This document shows positions 29,361 through 63,469 of a stretch of 64,000 nt of DNA, one piece after another. Every line of letters starts with the position of its first letter. Position 1 is the first letter of the stretch. The notes beneath the pieces are model-generated. The model searched no databases. It was not told the DNA's origin and saw nothing but the letters and a program-made list of their open reading frames with translations. The translations under genes were made by a program, and so were the position numbers. The DNA is from Salminus brasiliensis (taxonomy: Eukaryota; Chordata; Actinopteri; Characiformes; Bryconidae), in the NCBI RefSeq assembly GCF_030463535.1, contig NC_132896.1:31304023-31368022 (forward strand), written 5' to 3'.

Positions 29361-31811
29361 ATGACATTAATTGGAGTTTAGGCAACAAAATCTGTGGTAT
29401 TCAAATGATTCCAGCTATTCTTACTGATTAGTATGAAAGAGCCCATCACCAGTTGTGCAGTTGTGGCTAAAATGGCTAGCTGCTGCACTAATACTGCCTA
29501 ATAATTACACAGCTCTTCCTTCTTCATTCTTTAAGTGGCTGTCATAATCAATCATACCTCGCTTACTGCAGTGCCCCCAATGAAAAACAGCTTTAATTTT
29601 GGGCATACTCAAAGAAAATCACCCTGAAAATGGCTACATAACTGATGGTTTTTCAATCTCACTCTGGGGCAGAGCTCATTTGCTGGCAGATTAGTAGATT
29701 TTCCGAGTTCTCCATGCTTCTACATTCTGAGCAACACAATGTTCATGTAGATACAGATCCCAGTGAGATTTTTAAACCATGGCACAAACATGGCCAAGTG
29801 GGAAAAAACAGTGACTATGGAACCCCACTGCTGAAAAATCTACAACACTTATGGGCACAGGAAAGGTGTTTCGCAAGGTGACCTATGATCCCTAAACTCA
29901 GAGCTGGAGGAACCAGCCAGAACTGCTAGCAATGAGGACTACACTGCACATGTGGACCAACCACCAAAACGCCTTCATCTGTACATCCCCAGGATTGCGA
30001 CCTCCAGAGGGTGGAGATGGACGTTCAGGTGGGTGTTGCCGGGATGCTGATGCTGACTTGCTGAGCCAACAACACCGTTTTTCCTTCCTTTCTCTAGCTA
30101 ATAGTCACCTTATCTGTATGTCCATTGGACAGCTAGCTTTAGCTAACTAATATGCCAGCTAGTATCTCAGTGCTGTAAGTAATGCGAATGTGTGTTTTGC
30201 GAATGCGGACCACACTAGCTGAGGCAAGGAGGAGAACTCAAGAAATTTGGGTCGGAGTTCTGGGGGGGGCTTCGAGCTGATGGGACCCAAAGCCAGACCC
30301 CCCTTGCCAGGTAGAGGTGGAGTATGATGATAAGGAGGGGCAGGGGCGGTTGTGGGGTGCAAGTTTTCGTCACGAGAACGAGAAGGGAGAGGAACGGTTT
30401 TATAGTGTGTAGAAATGGAGGGGAGGAGTTTGGGCGTGGTCCTTTTCCCAAACTTTCAGTTATTGCATAACTTAGATGTGCGGTACCTCTGCTCATCACT
30501 TACGACGAGCAGTTGAGTGGTTGTGCCTGTTTGTCCGACCCCTTATCAAACTCAGAGATGCAAATTGATTGATTTGTTGCTAACACAACACGCTAATGTT
30601 AACTCCAGTGCCTGTACTACAGCTGATCTACATTTCCCATAATGGCATGTTGTAGGTTGCTTCGGCATGCAGTTTTCCAAGCCGCCTACGTGGCCGTGGG
30701 AGCACATAGCTAGCCGTATGTTTCAGTCGGTGCAGCCTTTTTATAGCTTGGTTACATTTGAGGAGTGACACCACGTGGTCAGGAGATTTTCACGACAGTA
30801 AAGTGAGTTGGGTGTATTGGTTAATATGACTTTTTGGGTACTTTGTAGATTCTGTGCCTTAGCCTTGGCTGTCTCTTATTGAAGATGGATAAAAATAGAA
30901 TTAATTAGGGTATATCAATATTGAAACCTTGAAATCTAATATCTCCAAAAGAGAAGGAAGAGACCTTCTTAAATGTCAATGGATGTTAGTACTGAGTAAG
31001 ATTCAGATTACAATAAAAAAAAATAAAAAATAGGGTTGAAAAACAAAGAAAACAGAGGTTTTGTGTGACCTCATATTGTGAAATGGCATTTTCATCACCA
31101 ATAACCTGAAATCTAAATAGTGTCAATTTTATTTATTTAGTAAGCAGATTTCATCTTGTTATCGCGACCAATGACAAGAATGGGACAGGAGGCCTTCTGA
31201 AAACACGCATTTCTGTCAGTCATTTAGTTGAAAAGGTTTCACTGCAGCTCAGGATTGACACAGTGTGAATGAAGGAGCTTCTCCATCTCCAGGTAGAAAG
31301 TAGGGACGACTCAAGCAGTAAAACAAATCTCCACTAAAATCCCACATTGGAATCTGGTTTCATCGATGCAGATCCCACCAGAGACATTTCTGCCACTATG
31401 CCAGTAAAAGATTTTCTATGCAGAAAACAAAGCCTATTTCACTTCCCTTAAGAAATGCAAATGAGATGTAAATGTGATGTTTACGTGTCGGAAATGTGTG
31501 CAAGCATGTAAACAAAAAAGTGTTCTGCGAGATTTGTTTTGAGCAAATGTAGTGACACTGTCTAAGCAGCCCATGAAGCAACCCCTGGTCTCGTGGAGGG
31601 GGTTTGTTTTTTTCAAGTGAGCAGTAGGATGGATTCAAGCCCACTGCAAAGCACAGGAACCGTCAAACCTGTCAGAGGAGTCCTCATACGACTGTCATCT
31701 AGCAGTCGGCACATGCACTTGTACTGTTGCTGGTTTGCAGACATTGTAACTAGCACTTCTATTGACTGTGGCTGTGCCATAGACATGGAAATGAATATGA
31801 GGTAAGAAGAG
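29361..31811. other. Spacer, nothing recognised
   Basis: Short ORFs only (60-94 codons), none with a domain. G-rich patches occur near 30,260-30,350. Confidence 0.35.
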
Positions 31812-32420
31812 AAACCAGTGGTTCCTCCTCATGCTCTTAGAGATGTTCTCATATAGACTCTCAGTTCTGCTCAGTGGTTCCTCCTCATGCCCTTAGAGAT
31901 GTTCTCATATGGACTCTCGGTTCTGCTCAGTGGTTCCTCCTCATGCTCTTAGAGATGTTCTCATATGGACTCTCGGTTCTGCTCAGTGGTTCCTCCTCAT
32001 GCTCTTAGAGATGTTCTCATATGGACTTTCAGTTCTGCTCAGTGGTTTCTCCTCATGCTCTTAGAGATGTTCTCATATGAACTCTCAGTTCTGCTCAGTG
32101 GTTCCTCCTCATGCTCTTAGAGATGTTCTCATATGGACTTTTAGTTCTGCTCAGTGGTTCCTCCTCATGCTCATAGAGATTTATTCATTTGGACTTTTGG
32201 GTCCTTGTAGTGGTTCCTTCTTATGCTCTTTCCATTACCTTCCAGAACTTTCCATTCTGCTCAATGGTTCTTCCTCATGCTCTTAGAAATTATTTCTATG
32301 GACTCTTGGTTTTGCTCAGTGGTTCTTCCTCATGATCTTGGAGAGTTTTTCATTTGGAGTTTTGGTTCTTAGTGGTTCCTCCTCATGCTTTCAAAGAGTT
32401 TCTCTGAGGTTCTTTTTTTC
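31812..32420 (+). repeat. Minisatellite, about 56 bp unit, about 10 copies
   Basis: Unit: CTCAGTGGTTCCTCCTCATG, CTCTTAGAGATGTTCTCATA, TGGACTCTCGGTTCTG. The first six copies are nearly identical; later ones (from about 32,160) decay. An isolated extra unit lies at about 32,915-32,962. Open frames through it reflect the period and lack of stops, not a gene. Confidence 0.9.
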
Positions 32421-32959
32421 TTCATGCTTTTTAAGTTCCCCTGGTTCTTCTCAACAGTTCTTCCTTGTGTGATTTGGGAGTTTTTTTGGAGTCTTGGTTC
32501 TTTTCATTCGCTAAACATGAACATTAGCCTGAGTTTGCTAGGGCAGAAGAAGTGCCTTGAGGTCTCTAATGGGGAGTTGACACTGGTTCTGTCAATGTGT
32601 TGCCACAGCCACCACGTTTGGGCCATCATTTAGCAAATTCTGCATTTCATTAATCAACCTGACGCACATCTGCTCACTGTTGAAGCAGACGCTGTGCACA
32701 CATGGATGTACTCCGGTCTTATAAATGACCAAAACCATTCAAATATAGTAGATTAATGATCCATTTAAATTTGGAAAAGAGAAGCCTAGCAAAATGGAGA
32801 ATCAAACCCAGGGTAGAAAACCAAAGAGAAGACAACATGAACAATGGAGAGATTATTCTATAGCCTTTATTTTCTCATTTTTATCATGGATGCCGATCAT
32901 TCTAGAGGGCTTTTGGGTCTTGGTTCCTCTCAGTGGTTCGTCTTCATGCTTTTAGAGAT
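32421..32959. other. Spacer
   Basis: No gene; contains the stray minisatellite unit near 32,915. Confidence 0.35.
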
Positions 32960-34360
32960 AGTGTTCCTAATATATATACACACACTAATCAAGACCTTTA
33001 TTAAGAACACTATACTAATACTAGTTTGGGCCTCATTTTGCCCTCAGAGCAGCTTCAGTTCCTCATGGGGTGAAATCGGCAAGATGTTGAGATTCTGCTC
33101 CATGTTGACATGACTGCACACCATTCCTGAGGCTAATGTTCTACCACACTCCGAAGGTGTTATATTGGATTCAGATCCAATGACTGGGAAGGGCCACTGA
33201 ATAACACTGAACTCATTGTCATGTTTATAAAACATGACACAGTTTGAGGCCATTGCTTTGGGAGGCGGTGCATCATCATGTTGGAAGTAGCTGCTGGAAG
33301 TTGTGGAGATTATGCACACCTTTTGGGAGAAGGTAGTTGAATATATCTTCTCTGTAAATAAGTCACACCTCCCCCTGGACCCTGAACTGCATTTTCTCAA
33401 TGGTGACTCAAGATGCTACACCATGGGAGGATACTGGGGAATATGGCTAGCTGGCTTAATTGTGGCAAAAAAAGCAATTGTACAGCGTTGGTTACCCCCT
33501 CGTAACCTCATACCCTCCAGATATCACTGGTTCCATACCCTACTGCATATCGTCGCTGTCCAATGAAAAACATGTATCTCCAAAAGGGTGGCTTTATAGG
33601 AGAAGGCAAAAATTAGTCCTGTTTACTCCAAGTAATTTAGAGCATTTCTATTGGTATGTTTATCCAGAACATCCATCTACACTGTGCACCTACAGGGACA
33701 AAAAACATGGACACAAATGGAGATACATGTTTTTCACTGGACAAAAGCGATATGCTTTATCTGGAATTATCCGCAAGAATGAGCAATGCAGCCCTTAAAA
33801 CTGGAATACATGGAATAATGGACTATCCAAAAGTCTCTTCTGTTTGTTTAAATATATGCTATGCTAGGATGTCAGTTTTTGGCTGCCCTGTGGTGTTAAA
33901 TCTCATGTGGGTGTGGGTAGAGGTTGGGATATTGGGTGTTTGTTCAATGGAAACAAATAAAAGAATGAATCACATAAAAAGAGATGCTAAATCGTGCTCA
34001 TGAAGGGATGCACATGGTCAGCAACAATACTCAAACAGGCCATGGCCTTCAAATTAACCCCCCAACACCATTACACCACCTCTACCAGTCTGCACTGTTG
34101 ACACCAGGCAGGTTGGGTTTATGGATTCATGATTTTGGCACCAAACGCTGATCCTGCCATCTGAGTGAGATTCCTTAGACCAGGATATGTCAACTCACCC
34201 GTGTTGGTGAGCCTGTGCTAAGCCACTGCAGCCTCAGCTTTCTGTCCTTGGCTGACAGAAGTGGAACCATACATGGATCTTCTGCTGTTGTAGATCATCC
34301 AGCTCTGGGTTTGTTGTGTTGTGCACTCTAAGAAGGGTTTCTAGCCACACATACTCACAT
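32960..34360 (-). mobile_element. Decayed Tc1-like element split by an L1-like insert
   Basis: Minus-strand relic of the same Tc1-like family as 28,790-29,360. The lower part (32,960-33,310) encodes a degraded C-terminal DDE segment with YFQHDDAP and KHDNEFSVIQWPF. The upper part (about 34,000-34,360) matches the preceding catalytic-core segment (GGTCAGCAACAATACTC, CACCATTACACCACCTCTAC, CTCAGCTTTCTGTCCTTGGC). The two halves are separated by about 690 bp of unrelated LINE-like sequence. Inactive. Confidence 0.75.
33310..34000 (+). mobile_element. L1-like LINE ORF2 3' fragment
   Basis: Plus-strand frame 33,303-33,566 includes HTFWEKVVEYIFSV, PLDPELHFLN, and WLAGLIVAKKAIVQRWLPP. This resembles the C-terminal region of fish L1-type ORF2, where a PLDP.LxLL motif precedes a small-residue helix and W(L)KP/PP. 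The 3' end has AAACAAATAAAAGAATGAAT, an A-rich tail. ATGCACA occurs just left (about 33,313) and right (about 34,008), a possible short target-site duplication. Family assignment is inferred from motif resemblance. Confidence 0.55.
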
Positions 34361-34680
34361 TTTTTAATAGTTCTTGTAAATGTCATGTTTAAAAAGATAT
34401 ATTAATGTACTGATTAAATAAAATAACTTACCATACCATGTAATGTATACCAAGCATTTCCCAAAGTGTCAATTAGAATTATTGATTTAATTATTAATTA
34501 AGCACATAAACAAGTTCTGCCCTAATATGTGTGAGGTCTGACTGACTGAGTGCCCTTAGCCCAGTTCTTATCAGTGGGCATACAGTGCATTTCAACATGA
34601 GTGGCCTGGGGTCTCTTTCACTGCATACTGGGTAGAATACAGATGGATGGGAGGGCTTGTAACACAGTCACATCACGTAG

Positions 34681-34725
<45 letters not shown>

Positions 34726-35404
34726 CATGTGTGTGTACAAACGGTTTCAGCCAAGTCATGCCTCAATAAAGTGTTCTTAGCAGGTCCAGGGCTAATTAAA
34801 TTCCAGCATGTTCCACTTTACTCTCACTCTTTCTCCCTGTGACAAACACACACTCACACACACACACACCCTCCCTTACACACTCTCAGGCACTTTACAG
34901 CATGCCAGCTAAGACGTGAAGGGCACTCTCTGAGTTGTACTACATGTGCCGTAGTCCCAGGCGTTTGCGCTGGTTTTCAGCATGGTCTGTACCTCAGATG
35001 CCCTTCAGGCCCAGTTCAATTAGGCTTTATTAAATGTCCTTTTTCCAAACTGGTGCCACATTTTACGCCGTTTTCAGTTCATATCTCCGTACAAATTTGC
35101 TTATGCTGAAAATTTGCCTGAAATGAATCAGTTGGTCATGGTGGAAATGAACTACGGGAGGTCACACGTAACCATTCTTCTCCCTGCCTCTCTTTATCTA
35201 TTTATCTCTTTCCCTTGCCGCCCATTCTTTGCTCTAGCGCAGCGCTTTGACTGACAGGCCGGAAAAAAAAAGACTCAAATGTTATCAGCTGAGAACAGAG
35301 GCAGAGGCAGAGGCAGTGCGCTAACTCTGGCTAAACTCCCAGTCTGTGCTAAACAGGAGAGCTGCAGAAACGTGTTGTTTTATTGCTGATATATAAATTA
35401 TCCT
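34361..35404. other. Spacer with microsatellite
   Basis: Contains a (TG)n tract at 34,682-34,734 and (CA)n near 34,845-34,870. Otherwise no gene or repeat seen. Confidence 0.4.
34682..34734 (+). repeat. (TG)n microsatellite
   Basis: About 18 uninterrupted TG units followed by interrupted ones. Confidence 0.95.
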
Positions 35405-35975
35405 TTGGAATCACCACAATTTCTAATAAAATGGGGTCTGGTTGTGCATTTGTGCTAGATGTGCCACTTTTGTCTCATCTGTCAATAGAGCATTTTCCCA
35501 GAAGCAGCGTGGAGCATCCAGGTGGTCTTGGGCAAACCTGAGATGGGCTACATCTACTATGAACACAGTTTCCTCTCTGCAAAGGGGTTTGAAGTTTGTA
35601 GATGTTCTGCAGATGTTTTGGTGTTACCTTTGGGTTCTTCCTTACCTCCTTCAGGATTTCCAGTTGTGATCTTAACAGGACACCCACTCTAAGGCACAGC
35701 AGCAACAGTCCTATTTTTTTTTTTCATTTGTGGACAATTTCTTATAGTGGATTGAAATACACCCAGATCTTTAAGAATGCTTTTGTAGCCTTCTCCAGCA
35801 TCAAGCATCTCTATAACATCTACCGAGGTCTTCTAAAGGGTTTATTCAATGAGTAGAACACCTGTGAAACCCACATCTGCAATCTTATCTCCATAACTGA
35901 AGCATCTTTTGTCATTAAGGGCTTGGGGATTTCATTAACACAGAGGTCCACTTACTTTTTCTAGCCTGCACTGTG
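35405..35975 (-). mobile_element. Decayed Tc1/mariner-like element (third family)
   Basis: On the minus strand a frame includes LEILKEVRKNPKVTPKHLQ, resembling the EVKKNPRVTAKDL segment of a Tc1-type transposase. Plus-strand text TTTTGTCTCATCTGTCAATA (the LWTDETK region reversed) is at the left. The right end reads CACTTACTTTTTCTAGCCTG and CACTGTGG, matching a terminal region known from fish Tc1-type elements. Multiple frame breaks. Confidence 0.65.
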
Positions 35976-38900
35976 GATGTTTACTCAACATGCCCACTAA
36001 AGACATGAGCAGTGGAGCTGTTTATTTGTTATAGGTTTAGACAAGTTTAGACTTTAGTTACCAATGACTTTTATCTTGACTTAATTATTAATAAGAAATT
36101 AGATATGGGTTTTTGCATGATGATGTTACTAATACCATCATTTGTAGAGATCCAGTGATGAAAGGACATGAAATTAGCTGAAGAATGCATACTGACTAGT
36201 TCAGGACTCAAGACTTAACTTCATTGTCTGAACTTTAAATTTGTGACGTTTGACTTACAACTCAGAGACTTGCTCCTAACCTTTGGGTAACCTTACGAAG
36301 AAAGGGCTTACAAAGAACTTCTCATTACTGGATGGTTGTTTGTGGCACCAGCTTTGGTCTATTAACTGAAGAACCATTAACTGAAAGGATCCTTAGGGCA
36401 CCACAAGTGGTTTCCTCAATAACATTGTTCCACATAACTCTTTTCTTTTGTTCTATTTCTACAGCTTTTCCTATTTTATTTGGCATTAAATGATTTACCT
36501 CCTTATATAACTGCCCGTATGCTGGTATACATTAGTTATAGGAGAGGACAAGCTCGTAATCTAAATGTGACAGTGCTGCAAAGCAATTTCTCCCTAGGGT
36601 CTAATAATGTCATAAAGGAGCACATGTTACAAAGAGCCTTTTGAATAACAAAAAAAAAGAGTTTTAGGTAGAAATCAATCACCCAGTACAGCGCTCTCTC
36701 CAGCCTCACTGGTTTAGTGAAGGGCCTGAAGAAGCTAATAGAAGCTGTCAATCATGGCAGAAGCTTTGTAAAGATCCACCCAAACTGTGAATAAAAACAA
36801 ATCTGCACCACAGACACTGTATGGATTTGTTAAACTCCACCAGCAGCTTATGCAATGACTGATACCATGCACACTTAGTTTACAGCAGTATTTTAACCCC
36901 TAAAAAAGCGTAAGGACCACCAGCAGGCCCAAACTTCCTATACCAGGGAATAGCCTCACCAGTCTGTACAGAAGTTCCTGTAGTTACTGAGTAATACACC
37001 CTAGTGTGTGATAAGCCTTGGAGTGTTAAGGGGTTAAAGGGCTGACTTTCTAACCTCTATTCAGTAGGAGAATCGTCAGCAATGCTTTCAGTAGCTCCAG
37101 CCTTTTATGTCCCCAGGTGGGCCAATGCAAGAGGCACTCAGTGGTTTAAGTAGGACAGAGTGTAACATGTCCCACTAAATAATGGCACAGGCTCATAACT
37201 ATCAGTTCCTGTTGTAAAATGATTCATTAGTCCTGACAGTAATGGTAAACGATCCTTTAGATTGAATTAGTAAAGGATCTGGCAGTGAGGCAACGTCTAT
37301 CTCGCATCAGAATAAATGTATGTATCAGTAAAGCTTCGTCTATAATAGAGAATATGATATTTTTGGTCTTTTGGCCTTTATGGTCCTTACACTCATACTG
37401 TTCGATGACCTTCATTCAGGATAAATCACACTTCTGCTGTTTTACATCTGGCTATTGCGCCCCCAAGTGGTTGAAAATCCAGTTCTGTTGGATCTCATTT
37501 CAATTGATGATGAAATAGGGGGAATTTTCCCTCTGTTACATAGCCGTGAGAGGCAACCTTCTCGATGTTGACGCTCCCACTGGCCACTGTATTCAGCATG
37601 CTTTTTTCGAATGTGCAGAGAGAGCTGGAGATCTGCTGATATTGAGGCTGGATCATCTCTTTAAAGACCTTTAAAGCCTTATGACAGGGTTACACTACAA
37701 TTTACACTAGGATTGTTGTCCTGCTTCTCAGTCTGGTTGAGTCTGTGCTGGTTAGCTGTAGCATGCAGATTTGTTTGAGGGGCGCAGACTCCGATTAGAC
37801 TAGTCTAGTAGTCTAGGATACTGGTCAGTGACTCAGTTTGGTCCCGCCAGTGAAAACTGAGCACAAAAAGATGCAGATTTCAGGCAGTTTCTTGTTTACA
37901 TTTTATGCTCCACCTTAAATGATGCAGCAGCTACACTCTGGCACTTGTACATGTCTAGTAGTTCAGCAGCAGGTTGAAGTCGTGTAGTGGATGATCCCTA
38001 GTCGTTTTGTGTGATTGACAGTTTTTCATTCACCATAAAAATCTGCTAAACTCAGAGGAGAAGTGTGAGATACTCAGTCTTTTATAATCTGCTACGACTT
38101 TTAAAGTCCAGTAGTGTAGACCCAAGGCTTTAGTGGACCCGCAGCCCTGTGATCAATAACCCAACCTACTGCTTTTTGCAGAACCTGAACTAAAGAAGAA
38201 AGCCCTGTTGGGCCTCCCCTCGCCTCAGCCAGGGTCACAGGGACATCTTTTGCTGTTGATTGTCAGTAAAATGCTGACAGACAGTAAACACCAACGTATC
38301 ACAGTGTGGAAAAATGACGCTCTGTTAGCTACTGTAGGCAAACTTTCGGCTCTTCTGGCATATGTATGTGTCAGCCAATAGGAGCCAACATTTGGCTGGG
38401 CTTAAATGGAGGAGAAATGAATGAATCCCTGTGGCCAGAGACATCCAGATAAGGATACTGCAGGACTGTGACCCTCGCTTGCACACAAAACACACCCACA
38501 ACAAACGACCAACACGTATCATTGTGGTACTGGATCGGAAAGCCTCCCTCGATGTGGTGATCGTGTCCTCGATGGACGCCTGGTCTTGTGAGACCAGAAA
38601 TAACTGCCCGTCGCTGTTGCTCCGGCGGCCCCCGATTGAACAGGCGTGCCTATAAGGACTTTGGTATAACTCAGTAAACAGTCTCTACCTGACTGAGACC
38701 TGGTTAGACCACTGCTCACATTCACAGACAGTCACATACAGTGTGTACAGTGTGTAGGACGTCCAGGAAGCCAATACTGACATTTTTGGGTCCCACTGTA
38801 ACTTCCTAATTACGTTTATGGATAAATCGAATTTCTAGCATTTACTGTCTTTTGCCAGTGTCAGTCTTGGGCAGACCTTCTGGTGTCTCCCTATTTTTTG

Positions 38901-39126
38901 ACACCCACTCCCACCCTCCACCCCCCAACCTCTGTCTGTCTCTTTTGGACTGTGTCTTTCCTCGGTTGTGGCCCAGTGCTGCTTTTCTCTGTAGTCTTCC
39001 TGAGGGACAGACACTAATCGGAGCCCTTTACAGCTTTGAAACACTGATTTGCCCCAGTTCTGACCAAGAGTGCTGCATATCTATGTGTAAACACACTGAC
39101 CAGCTGCGAGCACTAGATAAGCCCTA
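35976..39126. other. Spacer, nothing firmly recognised
   Basis: No supported gene. Near 38,660-38,720 the plus-strand frame reads SLYLTETWLDH, which resembles the LTETWL endonuclease motif of LINEs, but the surroundings are not alignable by eye. Short ORFs of 60-77 codons are chance. Confidence 0.35.
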
Positions 39127-39129
39127 TAG

Positions 39130-39178
<49 letters not shown>
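39130..39178 (+). repeat. (GA)n microsatellite
   Basis: About 20 GA units, immediately before the relic lectin exon region. Confidence 0.95.
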
Positions 39179-39184
<6 letters not shown>

Positions 39185-39185
<1 letters not shown>

Positions 39186-39525
39186 AACTCTTGTAAAACA
39201 CTGCACTCTGCTGGCAATCTGGACAATATCACACCAGACTGCAGGACAACACCTTGCTTTCCTGCTTTATTAGGTTGTGTTATTTATGCAGATATTCTTC
39301 CTTTCTTGAAGCTTCTTGCAGATGAAGATGCAAGTGAGCGTATCTTCAGTTTCTACCACAGACAAATGGCTCGTTTGGCCCCTTGTAGTGCAAGGGGCAT
39401 CATTCCATTGGTGAAGACCTGTGGCCACAAAGGAGATGAAAACAGGACAGGCACTGAGACTCTATCTGCTCATGTATGAAGCCTGAGCATTTAACTCCAG
39501 CCCTGAGTTTCGTGGTTTCTCTATT
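39185..39525 (-). pseudogene. Relic last exon of a C-type lectin gene (copy 0)
   Basis: This stretch aligns throughout with the 3' end of lectin gene 1 (40,345-40,685), including an AATAAA-type site and the acceptor region. The exon-like part is 39,346-39,418 on the minus strand: after a CCACAG acceptor it encodes LHQWNDAPC, with the conserved WND calcium-ligand motif, and in a second frame PFVCGRN and a stop. The intact genes have 12 bases between the cysteine codon and the PF codons; here there are 20, so a net gain of 8 bases shifts the frame. No matching exons 1-5 are found in 39,526-39,964. A dead, truncated fourth member of the cluster, more diverged than copies 1-3. Confidence 0.8.
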
Positions 39526-39964
39526 ATCTCGATTTCTTTATTTTTTTCCTAAATGATTGTAATTTGTTACATTTTGAAGTGAACTTCTCAGAATTTAAAG
39601 CACTCTGTGCACAAAAGTGCTTTAAAGGGATCCCACTGGGAACCATGTTTGTCATGAAGATGTGTGAGTGTCCTCTGCTGGCTGCTGGAATAGGTGTGGC
39701 GAGCAGATGAGAGGTGCAGTGATTAGGCGATCCAGGGTCGACTCCCAGGAAAGATTGTAGATCTTGGCTCCCAGGATGTAGCTTGGATTGTTGTAATTTT
39801 GACTTTCTGACCACTTTAATTTTAATCTTTTTAGGAGAGGAAGTTTTTTTTTTTTTTAATGTTGAGATTGTAATGTTAATTTAACATCTATTCAATGACT
39901 GATTGCTATCTGGGAACCGAGAACATGAACTCCACGTGAACTGCCATTATTCAACTATTATTTA
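39526..39964. other. Spacer between relic exon and tandem array
   Basis: A 96-codon minus-strand ORF (39,524-39,814) shows no lectin or other domain. The left border of the tandem repeat unit lies at about 39,965 (GGTAGATGCAGTCTTCCATT). Confidence 0.4.
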
Positions 39965-40433
39965 AGGTAGATGCAGTCTTCCATTCTAGGTTTTCTAATC
40001 CTGCTTGTTCAGTTAGAAATGAAGTCAAAATCTAATCAACAACAAGGGTGGGTTACAGGAATTCAGTGCTGAGAGGGATCACAAGGGGGAGCTGCCTGAG
40101 TGTCAGTCATTTACTTAGTTAGTTTGTGAGCATTTCTTTTGGTCATTTGTGTATTTACAACCTGAACTACTTCAACTAGTGCTGAGATGTTACACGTCAG
40201 TATGAAGTAATATTTGACCTCAAGAACAACTGAAATTTTGACTCAGCAAAAGCTGAATGAGTATGACCGGCCTGATATTATCTTCAATTTGTGGACACTG
40301 TCGGGTAACGTCCGTCAGGGTTATGCAACCTGTGTATTAATAACTGTAGAAATTCTTGTAAAACACTGCACTCTGCTGGCAATCTGAACAACATCACAGA
40401 TCAGGCTGGAGGACAACACCTTGCTTTGCTTGC

Positions 40434-40439
40434 TTTATT
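40434..40439 (-). other. Poly(A) signal, lectin gene 1
   Basis: AATAAA on the minus strand about 70 bases after the stop codon. The same hexamer is conserved at 44,295-44,300 and 48,182-48,187. Confidence 0.7.
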
Positions 40440-40509
40440 AGGTTGTGTTATTTAGATCAGATTTTTCTTGTTTGAAGCTTCTTGCAGATGAAGATGAGTG
40501 AGCGTATCT

Positions 40510-42231
40510 TCAGTTTCTGGCACAAATAAACGGCCTGGATAAATTGCAAGGGATATCATTCCATTGGTTAAGATCTGTGGCAACAAAGGAGGAAAATACA
40601 GGTCAGGCACTTAGACTCTTCATTCTCATGGATGAAACCTAAGCATTTAACTCCAGCCCTTAGTTTTGTGGTTTCTCTAATACGCAAAGGGGTTTAAAGG
40701 TCTAACGAACTTTATAAAACCAAAAGTAGTTATTTTATGGCATCGCTCGTCTGAGCATGAAGTCTTCAGTGGAAGAGAAAACGAACCTTTTTTGTATAGA
40801 GTCATCAACCTGGTTAATGTCAAAGCTTAGACTCTTTACCTAGAACTGGTTCACGGATTTTTGGAACTCTGAAACTTTCTCTTGTTTATTTGCAGGTTAA
40901 AACGACAGAATTCAGGTTATAAATGTGGCTCAGACTTTTTGCCTCACTGTAGATTTGACATATTTCACTGTAGAAATAGGAAAGAGACTGCAGCTATCAG
41001 AAGCCATAGTGAATGAGTACCTCCATAGTTCATTGTCATGCAGTGTTCTTTATTCTTGTAGTTACTGGGCTCATTCTTGCTCCAATCATGGAAGTCCATT
41101 CTGGACCCATCGCTCCAGAGCCATGTTCCTTCCTGTGCAGAGAAACAGTAGAGTAGTAATACATGGACAAATTCATGGAGTTATGTTGGAACCTTGCAGC
41201 ACTTACTGCTACAGCATCGTGGCCACCTATCCAGGTGATCATCAGAGAGCCGGTGTCTTTTTTAATGAGATCCTGTAAAAATGCATTTTCTTTATGGCTG
41301 TGCACTGAAGCAAGATTCCCACTGTTCTTCAAACACTCAGTCTAGAACAGAACAGAAGGTAAATCAGTTGGATTCAGACTGCTGTTCAAGCTTTACTTTA
41401 CTCTCACACCTACGGTCAGTGTACCTCTGCATCAACCCATTCAACTTGGGGCTTGAAGAACTTGAAACATCTGTTTCCATATTCAGTCCAGTCAGGTGGG
41501 CAAGACTTATGCACTGTGGGAAATGGAAAGCTGTAGGACTGTGCTTCTAAATGACCATAATACCATTAGCTACAGTGTCATGAACTGGATGAATACAACG
41601 TAAAATAGGAATCTTACAATGCTCCAGCCCTCCAAGTGCTCCATCTACAATCAATAAAATAAATGGGTTCTCATCAGTTAGTTAGTCATAGGTATCACAG
41701 TAGGTCAAACTTAACCACTGTCAGTGGCCTTAAGATAATCTACTGACATGCAGTTTTGGCAGAATTGTCTTTAAACTGGATCCTGATACTGACTACCAGT
41801 TTTCAGTACTCTAACAGTAAAGGTTTTCAAATAAGGAAACTCACAATTCAAGATTTGTCATCATATAAATTATACAGAGTACAGAACATAAAGAAATACA
41901 ATGGACTCCTGAAGTTACAGATGGTCCATCATATAAAAATAGATAGAGGAAGAATACAGGAGGCGAAAAACACAGTACAAGAAGACTGTTGCAAATACAA
42001 GACATGTCCACAAAACAAAAGCTACACTAAATAATAAGCAATGGTTTAATACAGTAAACAGGGCTGGCTGGCAGAATATAGTGAGAATAAAAGTAACTAG
42101 TTACCAGTTACAGGTTCTAAGTTCTCAACATAAACCCAGAGCAGGAGTCTAATAGAGGAATTTATGGGGCATTCATTCTTACCTGTGGCCAGCAAAAGCC
42201 CAAGAAACAAAGGCACAGTCCAGATGGCCAT
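40510..42231 (-). CDS. Secreted C-type lectin (ladderlectin / l-2-like), gene 1
   Basis: Spliced minus-strand gene, coding exons 42,231-42,183, 41,513-41,425, 41,341-41,207, 41,132-41,021 and 40,574-40,510. All have GT-AG borders and compatible phases (1, 0, 0, 1). It makes a 149-residue protein. Residues 1-16 (MAIWTVPLFLGLLLAT) are a signal peptide. One C-type lectin domain starts at CPPDW (21-25). Six cysteines (21, 32, 49, 122, 138, 146) fit the long-form CTLD pairing 21-32, 49-146, 122-138. The WIGGHDA motif is at 83-89. Calcium site 2 positions read EPS (112-114) instead of EPN or QPD, with E120 and WND (133-135) kept, so the sugar preference is unclear. The protein ends PFICARN. By family it is a secreted carbohydrate-binding protein of innate defence. 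A non-coding first exon ends at 42,335. No defect is visible. Confidence 0.88.
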
Positions 42232-42247
42232 TGCACTGAACCAAACA
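42183..42247 (-). other. Signal-peptide exon of lectin gene 1
   Basis: A pyrimidine-rich TTTCTTTCTTTGCAG acceptor precedes 42,247, ATG is at 42,231 and a GTAAGAATG donor follows 42,183. A longer in-frame read-through upstream of this ATG would cross the intron, so the ATG at 42,231 is preferred. Confidence 0.85.
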
Positions 42248-42420
42248 CTGCAAAGAAAGAAAGAAAGAGCAAGGCTTTCTAAACTTTCAGGCTCCAAGGC
42301 TTATTTACTTTTTCTCTGAAAATTCTCATCCTACCTGGCAGATCCTGTGTTTTTTGCTGTGGAGTCTTTGAGTAACCAGTAGATACTACCAGTAGCAGTA
42401 ACCGGCTGCAGGAGTTGACT

Positions 42421-42430
42421 CAATAAATAG
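42421..42430 (-). promoter_or_regulatory. TATA-like box, lectin gene 1
   Basis: CTATTTATTG on the minus strand, about 90 bases upstream of the first-exon donor at 42,335. Transcription start inferred at about 42,395. Conserved at 50,101-50,110 (gene 3) and altered to CTATTAATTG in gene 2. Confidence 0.5.
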
Positions 42431-42489
42431 ACCCTGTGTGACTGCTTAGTCACTCTGTGACTCTGTTCAGTTGTAGAATTGAGCAATCA

Positions 42490-42567
42490 GCTCTTTTTAA
42501 AACCCTTAATTTCAGAAGAAACATTAATTGAGCAGGTGTCCCAATATTTTTGTCCATATTATGGATT
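42490..42567. mobile_element. Tc1-type TIR scrap upstream of lectin gene 1
   Basis: GAGCAGGTGTCCCAATATTTT and TGTCCATAT form the outer terminal repeat of the TATGGACAAAA..GGGACACC family (compare 53,157 and 58,716), preceded by its subterminal TTAATTTCAGAAGAAACATT. No opposite end is found. The lectin promoter lies immediately inside it. Confidence 0.65.
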
Positions 42568-42719
42568 CATTTTGTCCAGTATGTATGATCATAAGAATTG
42601 AGGGTACTAATCACTCTATAGGGTAGTGTATAGGAAAATAAATAAGCAAAAATGAATAGAAATTCTATGAAAATGAACAAATGAAAATCCAATTGATTAT
42701 GAACCATGCTTCAACAGAA

Positions 42720-43800
<1,081 letters not shown>

Positions 43801-44294
43801 TGTGTCTGACCTAGCAAGTCATGACAGGTAGATGCAGTCTTCCATTCTAGGTTTTCTAATCCTGCTTGTTTAGTTAGAAATGAAGTCAAAATCTAATCAA
43901 CAACAAGGGTGGGTTACAGGAATTCAGTGCTGAGAGGGATCACAAGGGGGAGCTGCCTGAGTATCAGTCATTTACTTAGTTAGTTTGTGAGCATTTCTTT
44001 TGGTAATTTGTGTATTTACAACCTGAACTACTTCAGCTAGTGCTGAGATGTTAAACGTCAGTATAAAATAATATTTGACCTCAAGAATAACTGAAATTTT
44101 GACTCAGCAAAGGCTGAATGAGTATGACCGGCCTGATATTATCTTCAATTTGTGGACACTGTCGGGTAACGTTCGTCAGGGTTATGCAACCTGTGTATTA
44201 ATAACTGTAGAAATTCTTGTAAAACACTGCACTCTGCTGGCAATCTGAACAACATCACAGATCAGGCTGGAGGACAACACCTTGCTTTGCTTGC

Positions 44295-44300
44295 TTTATT
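44295..44300 (-). other. Poly(A) signal, lectin gene 2
   Basis: AATAAA on the minus strand at the position equivalent to gene 1. Confidence 0.7.
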
Positions 44301-44383
44301 AGGTTGTGTTATTTAGATTGCAGATGCAGATCAGATTTTTCTTGTTTGAAGCTTCTTGCAGATGAAGATGAGTGAGCATATCT

Positions 44384-46115
44384 TCAGTTTCTGGCACAAA
44401 TAAATGGCCTGGATAAATTGCAAGGGATATCATTCCATTGGTTAAGATCTGTGGCAACAAAGGAGGAAAATACAGGTCAGGCACTTAGACTCTTCATTCT
44501 CATGGATGAAACCTAAGCATTTAACTCCAGCCCTTAGTTTTGTGGTTTCTCTAATACGCAAAGGGGTTTAAAGGTCTAACGAACTTCACTTTATAAAACC
44601 AAAAGTAGTTATTTTATGGCATCGCTCGTCTGAGCATGAAGTCTTCAGTGGAAGAGAAAACGAACCTTTTTTGTATAGAGTCATCAACCTGGTTAATGTC
44701 AAAGCTTAGAGTCTTTACCTAGAACTGATTCAGAACGGATTTTTGGAACTCTGAAACTTTCTCTTGTTTATTTGCAGGTTAAAATGACAGAATTCAGGTT
44801 ATAAATGTGGCTCAGACTTTTTGCCTCACTGTAGATTTGACATATTTCACTGTAGAAATAGGAAAGAGACTGCAGCTATCAGAAGCCATAGTGAATGAGT
44901 ACCTCCATAGTTCATTGTCATGCAGTGTTCTTTATTCTTGTAGTTACTGGGCTCATTCTTGCTCCAATCATGGAAGTCCATTCTGGACCCATCGCTCCAG
45001 AGCCATGTTCCTTCCTGTGCAGAGAAACAGTAGAGTAGTAATACATGGACAAATTCATGGAGTTATGTTGGAACCTTGCAGCACTTACTGCTACAGCATC
45101 GTGGCCACCTATCCAGGTGTTCATCAGAGAGCCGGTGCCTTTTTTAATGAGATCCTGTAAAAATGCATTTTCTTTATGGCAGTGCACTGAAGCAAGATTC
45201 CCACTGTTCTTCAAACACTCAGTCTAGAACAGAACAGAAGGTAAATCAGTTGGATTCAGACTGCTGTTCAAGCTTTACTTTACTCTCACACCTACGGTCA
45301 GTGTACCTCTGCATCAGCCCATTCAACTTGGGATTCGAAGAACTTAAAACATCTGTTTCCATATTCAGTCCAGTCAGGTGGGCAAGACTTATGCACTGTG
45401 GGAAATGGAAAGCTGTGGGACTGTGCTTCTAAATGACCATAATATCATTAGCTACAGTGTCATGAACTGGGTGAATACAATGTAAAATAGGAATCTTACA
45501 ATGCTGCAGCCCTCCAAGTGCTCCATCTACAATCAATAAAATAAATGGGTTCTCATCAGTTAGTTAGTCATAGGTATCACAGTAGGTCAAAGTTAACCAC
45601 TGTCAGTGGCCTTAAGATAATCTACTGACATGCAGTTCTGGCAGAATTGTCTTTAAACTGGATCCTGATACTGACTACCAGTTTTCAGTACTCTAACAGT
45701 AAAGGTTTTCAAATAAGGAAACTCACAATTCAAGATTTGTCGTCATATAAATTATACAGAGTACAGAACATAAAGAAATACAATGGACTCCTGAAGTTAC
45801 AGATGGTCCATCATATAAAAATAGATAGAGGAAGAACACAGGAGGTGAAAAACACACAGTACAAGAAGACTGTTGCAAATACAAGACATGTCCACAAAAC
45901 AAAAGCTACACTAAATAATAAACAATGGTTTAATGCAGTAAACTGGGCTGGCTGGCAGAATATAGTGAGAATAAAAGTAACTAGTTACCAGTTACAGGTT
46001 CTAAGTTCTCAACATAAACCCAGAGCAGGAGTCTAAAAGAGGAATTCATGGGGCATTCATTCTTACCTGTGGCCAGCAAAAGCCCAAGAAACAAAGGCAC
46101 AGTCCAGACGGCCAT
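44384..46115 (-). CDS. Secreted C-type lectin (ladderlectin / l-2-like), gene 2
   Basis: Coding exons 46,115-46,067, 45,395-45,307, 45,223-45,089, 45,014-44,903 and 44,448-44,384, same lengths and phases as gene 1 (49, 89, 135, 112, 65 nt), giving 149 residues with no stop. Differences from gene 1 that I can read are I3V, K37E, P38S, V43A, S61C, D75G and I81N. S61C adds a seventh cysteine in the first long helix of the domain, which could stay free or support a disulfide-linked dimer; that is inference. Calcium-site residues (EPS 112-114, E120, WND 133-135) and the six framework cysteines are unchanged. The first-exon donor is at 46,219. Intact in sequence; expression unknown. Confidence 0.87.
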
Positions 46116-46304
46116 TGCACTGAACCAAACACTGCAAAGAAAGAAAGAAAGAGCAAGGCTTTCTAAACTTTCAGTCTCTATGGCTTATTTACTTTTTCTC
46201 TGAAAATTCTCATCCTACCTGGCAGATCCTGTGTTTTTTGCTGTGGAGTCTTTGAGTAACCAGTAAATACTACCAGTAGCAGTACCTGGCTGCAGGAGTT
46301 GACT

Positions 46305-46314
46305 CAATTAATAG
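46305..46314 (-). promoter_or_regulatory. TATA-like box, lectin gene 2 (variant)
   Basis: CTATTAATTG on the minus strand where genes 1 and 3 have CTATTTATTG. The single change may weaken TBP binding relative to the other copies. Confidence 0.4.
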
Positions 46315-46599
46315 ACCCTGTGTGACTGCTTAGTCACTCTGTGACTCTGTTTAGTTGTAGAATTGAGCAATCAGCTCTTTTTAAAACCCTTAATTTCAGA
46401 AGAAACATTAATTGAGCAGGTGTCCCAATATTTTTGTCCATATTATGGATTCATTTTGTCCAGTATGTATGATCATAAGAATTGAGGGTACTAATCACTC
46501 TATAGGGTAGTGTATAGGAAAATAAATAAGCAAAAATGAATAGAAATTCTATGAAAATGAACAAATGAAAATCCAATTGATTATGAACCATGCTTCAAC

Positions 46600-47690
<1,091 letters not shown>

Positions 47691-48181
47691 GTCTGACCTA
47701 GCAAGTCATGACAGGTAGATGCAGTCTTCCATTCTAGGTTTTCTAATCCTGCTTGTTTAGTTAGAAATGAAGTCAAAAACTAATCAACAACAAGGGTGGG
47801 TTACAGGAATTCAGTGCTGAGAGGGATCACAAGGGGGAGCTGCCTGAGTATCAGTCATTTACTTAATTAGTTTGTGAGCATTTCTTTTGGTCATTTGTGT
47901 ATTTACAACCTGAACTACTTCAACTAGTGCTGAGATGTTAAACGTCAGTATGAAATAATATTTGACCTCAAGAATAACTGAAATTTTGACTCAGCAAAGG
48001 CTGAATGAGTATGACCGGCCTGATATTATCTTCAATTTGTGGACACTGTCGGGTAACGTCCGTCAGGGTTATGCAACCTGTGTATTAATAACTGTAGAAA
48101 TTCTTGTAAAACACTGCACTCTGCTGGCAATCTGAACAACATCACAGATCAGGCTGGAGGACAACACCTTGCTTTGCTTGC

Positions 48182-48187
48182 TTTATT
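48182..48187 (-). other. Poly(A) signal, lectin gene 3
   Basis: AATAAA on the minus strand at the position equivalent to genes 1 and 2. Confidence 0.7.
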
Positions 48188-48270
48188 AGGTTGTGTTATT
48201 TAGATTGCAGATGCAGATCAGATTTTTCTTGTTTGAAGCTTCTTGCAGATGAAGATGAGTGAGCATATCT

Positions 48271-49894
48271 TCAGTTTCTGGCACAAATAAACGGCCTGGA
48301 TAAATTGCAAGGGATATCATTCCATTGGTTAAGATCTGTGGCAACAAAGGAGGAAAATACAGGTCAGGCACTTAGACTCTTCATTCTCATGGATGAAACC
48401 TGAGCATTTAACTCCAGCCCTTAGTTTTGTGGTTTCTCTAATACGCAAAGGGGTTTAAAGGTCTAACGAACTTCACTTTATAAAACCAAAAGTAATTATT
48501 TTATGGCATCGCTCGTCTGAGCATGAAGTCTTCAGTGGAAGAGAAAACTAACCTTTTTTGTATAGAGTCATCAACCTGGTTAATGTCAAAGCTTAGACTC
48601 TTTACCTAGAACTGATTCAGAACGGATTTTTGGAACTCTGAAACTTTCTCTTGTTTATTTGCAGGTTAAAATGACAGAATTCAGGTTATAAATGTGGCTC
48701 AGACTTTTTGCCTCACTGTAGATTTGACATATTTCACTGTAGAAATAGGAAAGAGACTGCAGCTATCAGAAGCCATAGTGAATGAGTACCTCCATAGTTC
48801 ATTGTCATGCAGTGTTCTTTATTCTTGTAGTTACTGGGCTCATTCTTGCACCAATCATGGAAGTCCATTTTGGACCCATCGCTCCAGAGCCATGTTCCTT
48901 CCTGTGCAGAGAAACAGTAGAGTAGTAATACATGGACAAATTCATGGAGTTATGTTGGAACCTTGCAGCACTTACTGCTACAGCATCGTGGCCACCTATC
49001 CAGGTGTTCATCAGAGAGCCGGTGCCTTTTTTAATGAGATCCTGTAAAAATGCGTTTTCTTTATGGCTGTGCACTGAAGCAAGATTCCCACTGTTCTTCA
49101 AACACTCAGTCTAGAACAGAACAGAAGGTAAATCAGTTGGATTCAGACTGCTGTTCAAGCTTTACTTTACTCTCACACCTACGGTCAGTGTACCTCTGCA
49201 TCAACCCATTCAACTTGGGGCTTGAAGAACTTGAAACATCTGTTTCCATATTCAGTCCAGTCAGGTGGGCAAGACTTATGCACTGTGGGAAATGGAAAGC
49301 TGTGGGACTGTGCTTCTAAATGACCATAATATCATTAGCTACAGTGTCATGAACTGGATGAATACAATGTAAAATAGGAATCTTACAATGCTGCAGCCCT
49401 CCAAGTGCTCCATCTACAATCAATAAAATAAATGGGTTCTCATCAGTTAGTTAGTCATAGGTATCACAGTAGGTCAAAGTTAACCACTGTCAGTGGCCTT
49501 AAGATAATCTACTGACATGCAGTTTTGGCAGAATTGTCTTTAAATTGGATCCTGATACTGACTACCAGTTTTCAGTACTCTAACAGTAAAGGTTTTCAAA
49601 TAAGGAAACTCACAATTCAAGATTTGTCGTCATATAAATTATACAGAGTACAGAACATAAAGAAATACAATGGACTCCTGAAGTTACAGATGGTCCATCA
49701 TATAAAAATAGATAGAGGAAGAACACAGGAGGTGAAAAACACACAGTACAAGAAGACTGTTGCAAATACAAGACATGTACATGTATGAGAATAAAAGTAG
49801 CTAGCACAGTTACAGGTCCTAAATTCATGGGGCATTCATTCTTACCTGTGGCCAGCAAAAGCCCAAGAAACAAAGGCACAGTCCAGACGGCCAT
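48271..49894 (-). CDS. Secreted C-type lectin (ladderlectin / l-2-like), gene 3
   Basis: Coding exons 49,894-49,846, 49,282-49,194, 49,110-48,976, 48,901-48,790 and 48,335-48,271; 149 residues, frame intact. Relative to gene 1 I read I3V, D75G, I81N, R102K and S109C. S109C places a cysteine two residues after the central Trp (DWCKNEPS). Many fish ladderlectins also have a WC.GEPN arrangement here, so this may be the ancestral state lost in genes 1 and 2. The six framework cysteines, WIGGHDA, E120 and WND are kept; the EPS triplet is as in the other copies. The first-exon donor is at 49,998. Predicted secreted, like its neighbours. Confidence 0.87.
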
Positions 49895-50100
49895 TGCACT
49901 GAACCAAACACTGCAAAGAAAGAAAGAAAGAGCAAGGCTTTCTAAACTTTCAGTCTCTATGGCTTATTTACTTTTTCTCTGAAAATTTTCATCCTACCTG
50001 GCAGATCCTGTGTTTTTTGCTGTGGAGTCTCTGAGTAACCAGTAGTTACTACCAGTAGCAGTAACAGGCTGCAGGAGTTTGTTTTCTGGGTGTTTTGACT

Positions 50101-50110
50101 CAATAAATAG
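50101..50110 (-). promoter_or_regulatory. TATA-like box, lectin gene 3
   Basis: CTATTTATTG on the minus strand. About 20 extra bases (50,078-50,097) separate it from the first exon compared with genes 1 and 2, so the start site may be shifted. Confidence 0.45.
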
Positions 50111-50158
50111 ACCCTGTGTGACTGCTTAGTCACTCTGTTCAATTGTAGGTTTGAGCAA

Positions 50159-51637
50159 TGCATTCAGCTACTTCGAGTTACAGTGGAACTGTGTTCTTGG
50201 GAATAATGGACGGTGTTCCGTCCATTTCTCAATTATACGTTAATTAATCACCTCAGCTGTCCTATATTTGATTCATAACTGACCCTTTGTTCTCTTTAAA
50301 ACAGACCGATATCAGATAACTAGGTAGCTGGCTAACTAGGCTAACCTCTAAGTGGTAGAGATTGTAAGTGTATTCACCTAAACCTGTCACTGAGAACTGA
50401 TAACATGAAATAATCATTTAAAAAATGTTACTTTGCTGTTTGAAACAAATCTACTTTAACAGCTAGATCTGCCACCAGATATGGACAAAATCTACGTTCT
50501 GAGAGAAAATATGGCCCTTTCTAACATTACTTTCATGTGGTTTCAACTTGTTATTGATTGGTTACCCTTTGTCTGCCAACCAGACACCTGCACTGGCGCT
50601 TCCTCTGGCCAGGCCTTCTCCGAGCAGTGCTACACACAGTCAGCTAATGTTAGCCTCGAAGGCCTGTTGTTAGTGGACTGGGACTGGGAACATCCTTCCC
50701 CAGAGAAATAGCTCGATATGAAGCTCTGGTAAAGCGGACATGATGGGTACTTGTAAGGCTATCAGGTAGGATGTTAGCCTAAGCGCTAACCTACCTAAAG
50801 CCGGATGTTTATGCAGATTTTAGCCCCAATGGTTTGGTTGTTGGTTGAGTCCGAGTCTGTGGTGGTTGGATCTAGCATTTCTCACCAGTTGAAGTATATC
50901 AAACGTTGAATTTTAGGGCCCGACTCATCGACCTGAGGTCAGTGACTCAGTCTCAATGGCCCTGTCAATAATCTTCCCTTCCAACTTAAATGATTCAGCA
51001 GCTGCAGTCCGAAGCATTTAAGGTGGAATGGAAATTAGATTAAGCATCTGCCACGTCAGTATACTGGCCTCCAATATGTGATGTGCTCCTCACCGCCCCA
51101 TGTACCTGAGCTCCACACGGACTCTCCTTATTTACCCATGCCAAGGTCAACACAGCTCTCCATTCTAGGGCACCTTCGAACATTTTCTTGTGCCGCTTGC
51201 TTTTCTTGCTGCCCCACATGATTCCCATGTTTGCAGCCTGAAGGGTTGGTTACAGAACTAGCTGACTAGCAGTACAGTCTAATGAGCAACACGAATGCTG
51301 ACTTGTTGAACTTACATAGAACTCTGCCTCAATATGTGAGGAAACTTTCCACTAGAATGAACCTGCTTGTACATTTTGACTCTACAGAAGCAGAATCAGC
51401 AGCAGGCAGTGGTGACCTGATAAGATTTTATCGTTCATACACGAGAATCAGTTGTGAAAGCATGATTCCTTCATAAAACACGTATTTGGCAATTTCTGCT
51501 TTTATTGCATATTAAGACAAACAGCCTCAAATTTACTTCTCCACATTTATTATAGCGCGGCCGAAGCATAGACACTGGCCGAGCTTCATTATCACACAGC
51601 TGCCAGCAGACAGCATCCCAAAAACCGACAGTTCTAA
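50159..51637. other. Spacer upstream of lectin array
   Basis: No gene. A short Tc1-MITE scrap lies at about 50,175-50,225 (CAGTGGAACTGTGTTCTTGG, AATAATGGACGGTGTTCCGT). A 76-codon ORF at 50,481-50,711 has no domain. Confidence 0.4.
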
Positions 51638-59383: not shown

Positions 59384-60659
59384 GAAGAGTTGGAGTTTGG
59401 GAAGTTTTACCTGCCTGCCGGGGTGGTGTGTGTAACTCATGGCCTGGGGGGCACTGCTGTGTGTGGGCCTCTCCTCCTCTGAGCTCTGAGTTTGGGAGAC
59501 AAGCACTCACCCTCCTCTTCAATCTCCTGGGCCTGGTCCTCTGCTGGGCCCCGGGGGTCCGGTAGCCCCGGCTTGCCCGCGGCAGGAGGCTGCTGGGAGT
59601 CGGGCGAGTGTGTGACCAAACGGGAGCGCTGCAGGGCCGTGGTGTAGTCCGGCGGCCTCCGGCCAGCGTGGGCCACCCCCTCAGTCACGTCCGAGATAGT
59701 CAGTGCCGTATAGCCCGGAGGTGTGGGCGGGGGGTCACGGTACCGGCCATCTTTACGTGCTAGGTCGGGGGGGAGGGAGGTGGAGAGGTAGTCAGTACCT
59801 AGTACAGTCCAAAAAGTGCCACATAAACACACACACTAAACACTTTCCGACCCCGATTATGAACCCCAGAGGAAGGCATGATCCTTACTAATGACGCCCT
59901 TGGCATTCCCAGCGGTGATGGGTGATGGGCGTCGGCTGTGCTGTTTGGACTCCTCGGAACCCGTGGAGGTGATACTGCTGGTCTCGGGGTCAGCGCTAAC
60001 GTCCTTTCCCCCTCGCCGCTTGATGGTCCCCGTATCGCCCTCGGAATCCTCGCCCCAGCAGGCTGCCGACGAGGATGAAGACGAGCAGGCCGACGCCCAG
60101 CTGCCACGACCCGCCCAGAGTCCAGCCCCTTCCGCTAGCACCTCCCAGCTGCGGCCTTGCTGCATGGTTTGGATGTTATCATGGGAACCGCTGGAGCAGG
60201 ACGTCCAGCTGCCGCGGCCTGAGTCTGCGGCGTCCAGAGAGACACGGTCACCCTGGTCCTGGGTCAGCTCCTCTGAGCTGGGCGAGGAAAGCACGGTCGC
60301 TCCGGCATACACACCCCTACAGTCCTGCATGGACGAGTACGACCTGAGGATAGAAGCAAATGAAAGCTAAGACTGAAGAGCTGTCTTTGAAGTGTGTCTT
60401 TGTCCAACCCAGCTCAGAAAGCGGGGGCAGAGCACAGGGCAGAACACTGGAGTTACTCACCCTAAGCTATACTGGTCTGGATCGGCTGTCGCCCTGCGCT
60501 CCAGCCGGTGAACCCCACCATGACCCTCACCACCTCCTCCATAACGGTGCCGCCTCTCGTCCTGTCCCATATCCAGAGAGGAGGTGCTGACCAGGCTGGA
60601 ACGGGACGATATCTCGCTGTGGCCGGAGTCAGACAGGTTGTCACCTGCTCGCCCAAAAC
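56613..60659 (-). CDS. rapgef2: rapgef2 (PDZ-GEF1), C-terminal coding exons; 5' part outside window
   Basis: Minus-strand exons 60,659-60,461, 60,343-59,889, 59,759-59,511 and 56,638-56,613, GT-AG throughout, phases joining cleanly (2, 1, 1). They encode the Ser-rich tail of a Rap1/2 guanine-nucleotide exchange factor: [22 protein letters not shown] joined to [98 protein letters not shown], and an acidic end reading EDEQVSAV. The final SAV is a class I PDZ ligand typical of RAPGEF2/6. [20 protein letters not shown] and the [20 protein letters not shown] block favour RAPGEF2 over RAPGEF6; which fish paralogue is unknown. cNMP-binding, REM, PDZ, RA and CDC25 domains must lie in exons beyond 64,000. 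Confidence 0.92.
56671..56745 (+). repeat. (CA)n and (GATA)n microsatellites
   Basis: CA repeat 56,671-56,714 followed by TAGA/GATA units 56,725-56,745, just inside the last rapgef2 intron. Confidence 0.9.
56746..56998. other. Intronic spacer (last rapgef2 intron)
   Basis: AT-rich, no feature recognised. Confidence 0.4.
56999..57225 (+). mobile_element. Tc1-type MITE, truncated by another repeat
   Basis: TTATGGACAAAAGTATTTAG, GAAAGAGCATTGCTGTGAGG, GATCAGGATGTTGGATGATA, CTCAATGCTGGGGGGCTCTA and CCCCTCTAGCCTGGCA, then abrupt change to TTTACATTTACGGCATATGG. The second half of the MITE does not resume. Confidence 0.8.
57226..57505 (+). repeat. Interspersed repeat, TTTACATTTA..GGCATTTAGCAGA family (copy 3)
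   Basis: Same ordered blocks as 13,731-14,130: TTTACATTTACGGCAT, CTTCTCCAAAGCGACTTACA, ACTAAACACAAGTCAGTATG, GAAGAGGAGGGTCTTCAGTC, GACAGCGAGCG, GTTCGGACACCCAGGGGAAG, TTTGTCCACCAATTTGGTGC. It has interrupted the MITE at 57,225. Confidence 0.75.
57530..57820 (-). mobile_element. tRNA-derived SINE (second family)
   Basis: Read on the minus strand: AGGGTGGCTCAGCAGTCTAA (A-box-like), then AAGTTCGGATCCCAAG (B-box-like), CATCAGCAGCTAGTGCCTGA, GTTGTTAGTCGGCACAGGCC and GTATCGGAGGACACGTGTG. An older copy of this family may be at 2,900-3,045. Confidence 0.7.
57821..58715. other. Intronic spacer (last rapgef2 intron)
   Basis: No exon found. G-rich run at 58,460-58,505 and (GT)n at 58,621-58,652. ORFs of 84-127 codons here are low-complexity products. 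Confidence 0.4.
58621..58652 (+). repeat. (GT)n microsatellite
   Basis: About 15 GT units. Confidence 0.95.
58716..59125 (+). mobile_element. Complete Tc1-type MITE (about 410 bp)
   Basis: Left end CACTATATGGACAAAAGTAA and TGGGACACCTGCTCAG. Right end GTGTCCACAAACATTTGGAC and ATATAGT. Internal blocks CATTCAGCGAGAAGAGCACT, GGCTGGCATTAGGCAGCATG, AATAGGTCAATGTTTATCTG and GCATTTGCACATCTGTGTCA are shared with the copies at 19,206, 53,157 and 56,999. No coding sequence. Lies in the last rapgef2 intron. Confidence 0.88.
59312..59383 (+). repeat. (AT)n/(TG)n microsatellite
   Basis: Compound ATATATAAAT and TGTGTG tract, about 130 bases downstream of the donor at 59,511 in sense orientation. Confidence 0.9.

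Positions 60660-61874: not shown

Positions 61875-63469
<1,595 letters not shown>

Follow-up and report, generated by a model that had tools for sequence, protein, structure and literature searches.

The window analysed here, a 64,000-nucleotide (nt) stretch of the Salminus brasiliensis genome (C19:31,304,023-31,368,022, on NC_132896.1), contains three intact-looking C-type lectin genes on the minus strand between positions 39,965 and 50,158, arranged in tandem about 3.88 kb apart and each made up of six coding exons. The evidence is good that they form a tandem array of genes encoding C-type lectin domains behind hydrophobic N-termini. The genes, named G0, G1 and G2, and the region upstream of the first are as follows:

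48271-49894, minus strand: lectin gene G0, exons 49894-49846, 49413-49387, 49282-49194, 49110-48976, 48901-48790 and 48335-48271; 158 amino acids, with Cys118; Lectin_C E 1.9e-21.
44384-46115, minus strand: lectin gene G1, exons 46115-46067, 45526-45500, 45395-45307, 45223-45089, 45014-44903 and 44448-44384; 158 amino acids, with Cys70 and five clustered private changes in exon 3; Lectin_C E 1.3e-20.
40510-42231, minus strand: lectin gene G2, exons 42231-42183, 41644-41618, 41513-41425, 41341-41207, 41132-41021 and 40574-40510; 158 amino acids; Lectin_C E 3.5e-21.
49998-50159, minus strand: probable 5' untranslated exon and upstream part of G0, the presumed exon end at 49998 (CTGCCAG before the junction, GTAGG after it) being placed by eye; G1 and G2 each have a counterpart upstream.

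In every copy the coding exons measure 49, 27, 89, 135, 112 and 65 nt, separated by introns of phases 1, 1, 0, 0 and 1. All five coding introns are of the GT-AG type in the three genes, the ten splice sites of these introns do not vary between copies, and joining the exons yields an uninterrupted 158-residue protein each time; we infer that G0, G1 and G2 are spliced in this way. The plan proposed for each copy starts with a probable noncoding exon, followed by one encoding the signal peptide, by a mini-exon of 27 nt and by four that encode a long-form domain. The first-pass annotation of this DNA had given the products 149 residues, having missed the in-frame 27-nt exon 2 (49413-49387, 45526-45500 and 41644-41618), with which the length becomes 158. 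Such an exon is easily missed, and it is included in the gene models given here. Leaving it out, as was done on G2, returns exactly 149 residues with the frame kept, and since skipping it stays in frame a 149-residue isoform is conceivable. The same annotation was right that coding exons are at most 135 nt long, that the motifs CPPDW, WIGGHDA, EPS, WND and PFIC occur (all are found in the three products), and that no long open reading frame marks the genes, as no listed frame (at least 80 residues, stop to stop) contains a whole lectin. Its prediction that annotation would miss all three genes is open to doubt, animal genomes usually being annotated with splicing taken into account.

The domain assignment rests on Pfam Lectin_C (PF00059) scores of 77.2, 74.5 and 76.4 bits for G0, G1 and G2 against a cut-off of 22.6, and E values far beyond chance. 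A PDB search with G2 returned 229 distinct sequences at E <=0.001; among the 60 shown, the best were multi-domain receptors and the best single-domain match was the herring type II antifreeze protein 2py2 (E 7.6e-28), while lithostathine was also among the C-type lectin domain matches (E 1.7e-21). Cys30, 41, 58, 131, 147 and 155 are present in all three copies and spaced as three conserved herring pairs, and all three carry the long-form cysteine pattern together with W142-N143-D144; the disulfides themselves are predicted from this pattern. Of the residues expected at a Ca2+ site, E121, E129, N143 and D144 are in place, and Ser123 stands where EPN or QPD motifs have Asn or Asp. The products also contain the sequon N148-L-S150. 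Each gene would thus give a small secreted protein, 158 residues long with its signal peptide still attached, that contains one domain, three conserved disulfides and a single predicted Ca2+ site of the type EPS...E...WND; its most likely function would be Ca2+-dependent sugar binding on microbial or mucus surfaces. Secretion, disulfide formation and an immune role are what we infer from these features, as is the binding of Ca2+ and sugar, which the site residues make likely. Two weaker matches were rejected: one to Pfam UL45 (16-17 bits, cut-off 27), set aside as reflecting a shared fold, and one to a polycystin model (31.2 bits, cut-off 1861.4), the sole NCBIfam match.

Fish single-domain secreted C-type lectins, among them ladderlectin, nattectin, lactose-binding lectin l-2 and the skin-mucus lectins, consist of a signal peptide followed by one long-form domain. 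The window products resemble this group in plan but have EPS where the fish secreted lectins have EPN or QPD. The ladderlectin label, and with it an immune role for copy-number change in this array, is plausible. Bacteria treated with active plasma are reported to have retained a ladderlectin-like protein from trout (PMC10668809).

BLAST homology of the array extends from 39,965 to 50,159, that of G2 ending near the former position and that of G0 near the latter, which agrees with the limits first proposed for the array. Start-to-start spacing is 3,861-3,887 in the repeat families D3, D5 and D6, and in the 5' family D7 it is first 3,884 and then 3,779, bearing out the initial count of three minus-strand copies in units of about 3.88 kb. 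Compared with itself by BLAST, the window shows 98.2% identity between 39,965-45,894 and 43,826-49,781, and 97.5% between 39,965-42,010 and 47,713-49,781; the 5' pieces involving G0 are 89.3-89.6% identical and contain gaps of 8 and 17 nt. The description of the genes as complete and intact also holds at the sequence level, no coding exon having a stop or a frameshift. Between and beyond the genes lie the following:

46372-47712, minus strand: G0-G1 spacer with a Tc1-type transposase relic bearing in-frame stops; the homologous frame in the G1-G2 spacer has an HTH_Tnp_Tc3_2 match.
42488-43825, minus strand: G1-G2 spacer, also with this Tc1-type relic, whose frame 43042-43518 matches HTH_Tnp_Tc3_2 at E 4.2e-18.
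39183-39526, minus strand: what is left of an older copy, from the end of intron 5 through the last exon into the 3' flank; identity 81.6-82.7%.

The two spacers, each about 1.34 kb long, differ at 13 of 1,339 columns and by one 3-nt gap. They have in common the in-frame stops at codons 25, 80, 258, 280 and 285 of frame 0, and one has an extra stop at 239; the shared stops are most simply explained if the transposon was dead before the unit of gene plus transposon multiplied. The array would then most likely have grown by unequal crossing-over of a unit consisting of the gene and a dead Tc1 transposon, which is the simplest route. The older relic lies beyond G2 and is confined to the last-exon region; its exon is broken in frame by an 8-nt alignment gap, and a BLAST search with the gene found no trace of its exons 1-5 in 30000-39560. 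This suggests earlier gain and loss of copies at the locus. Elsewhere in the window, at 62091-63227 on the minus strand, there is a Tc1/Sleeping-Beauty-type transposase in two adjoining frames split by an in-frame stop (HTH_SB E 1.8e-27, DDE_3 E 5.8e-15), about 69% identical to the spacer relics over 178-180 aligned columns (BLAST).

Tandem arrays of small secreted lectin genes are usual in fish genomes. We consider the present locus, with a probability of roughly 0.8, to have arisen when one fish-type gene for a single-domain C-type lectin was recently triplicated in tandem. It would add one more locus to the known multiplication of small secreted lectin genes in fish genomes, here with exact gene models, and would matter more if copy number varies among individuals and tracks disease resistance. 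Among the paper titles listed in literature searches, none concerned fish lectin gene arrays and one was on lectin expansion in bivalves.

Three points weigh against a triplication of working lectin genes. Sugar binding may be altered or lost, because Ser occupies the third position of the EPN/QPD motif. G0 and G1 have extra cysteines, Cys118 and Cys70 respectively, without an evident partner. Finally, purifying selection between the copies is not seen. Over 477 coding positions G0 and G1 differ at 10, G0 and G2 at 7, and G1 and G2 at 11, corresponding to 6, 6 and 8 residue changes; by hand count, 10 of the 14 variable columns are nonsynonymous and 4 synonymous. Pairwise nonsynonymous divergence (dN) is 0.016-0.021 and synonymous divergence (dS) 0.011-0.045. 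Exons change at about the rate of introns: the copies diverge by 1.5-2.3% in coding sequence and 1.3-1.9% in introns, and 14 changes in 477 exon positions against 25 in 1130 intron positions (the latter denominator rounded) give a Fisher P of 0.38.

The alternative that survives best, unlikely but not negligible, and partly compatible with a recent triplication, is that these are relaxed or dying duplicates, of which one or none is used while the others are intact merely through youth. The similar divergence of exons and introns fits this, as does the degenerate relic next door, and 14 random coding changes would be expected to produce only about 0.67 stop codons, so that the intact frames are weak evidence for use. 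On the other hand, there is not a single coding indel in any of the three pairwise comparisons, even though introns and flanks have several, and the ten splice sites are conserved in full.

The distribution of changes also allows the thought, which we hold to be improbable, that the copies are diverging in use, G0 having gained or kept an unpaired Cys118 at the rim of the Ca2+ loop, where antifreeze proteins have a disulfide, and G1 carrying a cluster in exon 3 as might come from a short gene-conversion tract or from selection. Five private changes of G1 fall inside 30 nt of exon 3 (permutation P 0.0012, for G1 alone and uncorrected for three copies). If this were true, the array would show lectin copies at an early stage of dividing binding or assembly properties among themselves. 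A second cluster, seven private changes of G0 within 30 nt that none of 5,000 permutations reached, was discarded; it sits at the edges of a gap in intron 1 and is in our judgement likely an alignment artefact.

It is also improbable that the array is an assembly artefact in which alleles of fewer loci were placed end to end as false duplicates. The 97.5-98.2% identity of the long BLAST matches between copies is a level that divergent haplotypes might show, but three mutually distinct copies are more than the two alleles of one diploid locus. Every copy has private changes, numbering 23, 18 and 24 of 2,398 aligned columns in G0, G1 and G2 (the G0 count lying partly at an alignment gap), and the outer flanks of the array are unlike the spacers in sequence. 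Our protein search of the assembly (1.07 Gb, 103 contigs) gave 143 matches, 150 of the 379 candidates having been scored, and among the matches listed those of at least 82% identity are exons of G0, G1 and G2 only.

The match to herring 2py2 raises the question of kinship with type II antifreeze proteins, for which the comparison set is herring, smelt and sea raven (PMC2440524, PMC3499448, PMC1891086). The two groups share a fold, as judged by sequence match, and their genes are alike in plan. Type II antifreeze genes have five introns (PMC2440524), as do the window genes, and intron 2 of the rainbow smelt gene contains a mini-exon, a position that matches the window's 27-nt exon if the probable noncoding first exon is counted. 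In the herring/smelt comparison (PMC2440524) antifreeze exons 3-5 measure 80, 126 and 109 nt, against 89, 135 and 112 nt in the window, the differences being multiples of 3 and the pairing being suggested by length. The proteins part company in their cysteines and loop. Herring antifreeze protein is described (PMC1891086) as having ten paired cysteines in five disulfides, the two extra ones being Cys69-Cys100 and Cys89-Cys111, and an ice-binding site of Thr96, Thr98, Asp94 and Glu99. Judged against that description by residue spacing, six of the ten cysteines have counterparts in all window copies, and both extra disulfides are precluded in their herring arrangement: the positions of Cys100 and Cys111 are His130 and Gln141, there is no Cys near the Cys69 position, and the Cys89 position is occupied by a Cys in G0 alone (Cys118), where its partner position is Gln141. 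Residues 123-129 read SNYKNKE, with no Thr at the loop that holds the herring ice-binding Thr96 and Thr98. Despite the best single-domain PDB match and the similar gene plan, it is thus very improbable that these are type II antifreeze protein genes, since the two extra disulfides and the ice-binding threonines described for herring have no counterparts here. The window proteins are relatives of lectins and do not belong to the antifreeze group.

The Lectin_C family as a whole has at least 149 matches in the assembly at E <=0.001 (150 of 753 candidates scored). The highest identity outside the array, among the matches listed, is 53% over a short stretch at C9:23,804,005. This belongs to a cluster at C9:23.80 Mb (L019) of three copies with split exons, the first of which has, by eye, the exon 3-6 boundaries of the window genes up to the last coding Cys. 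Its lectins are 30-60% identical to the window genes per matched stretch and have QPD where the latter have EPS. Exon 5 of the second copy has a different end, and in two copies a possible splice donor directly follows the last Cys codon, perhaps leading to a further exon, unlike in the window genes. No counterparts of exons 1-2 were identified in this cluster. At C9:6.93 Mb (L024:5557-6003) we observed two lectin exons with an EPN motif and adjacent cysteines; no other lectin exon was found in that 9.9 kb locus.

The remainder of the window holds features of other kinds. A Pfam scan of ten window frames, one of them a spacer relic frame, left six without a match. Long frames at 59437-60366 on the minus strand may resemble the C-terminal part of a Rap guanine-nucleotide exchange factor; they gave no Pfam match, and frame 59857-60366 gave no PDB match (phmmer). 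A reverse transcriptase fragment lies at 557-1087 on the plus strand (RVT_1 E 7.5e-15), and Rfam gives a single match in the window that reaches gathering score, a UnaL2 LINE (long interspersed nuclear element) 3' element at 13747-13800 on the minus strand. Two tandem arrays are also present, one of about 19 copies of a 43-bp unit at 4567-5391 and one of about 10 copies of a 56-bp unit at 31816-32389.

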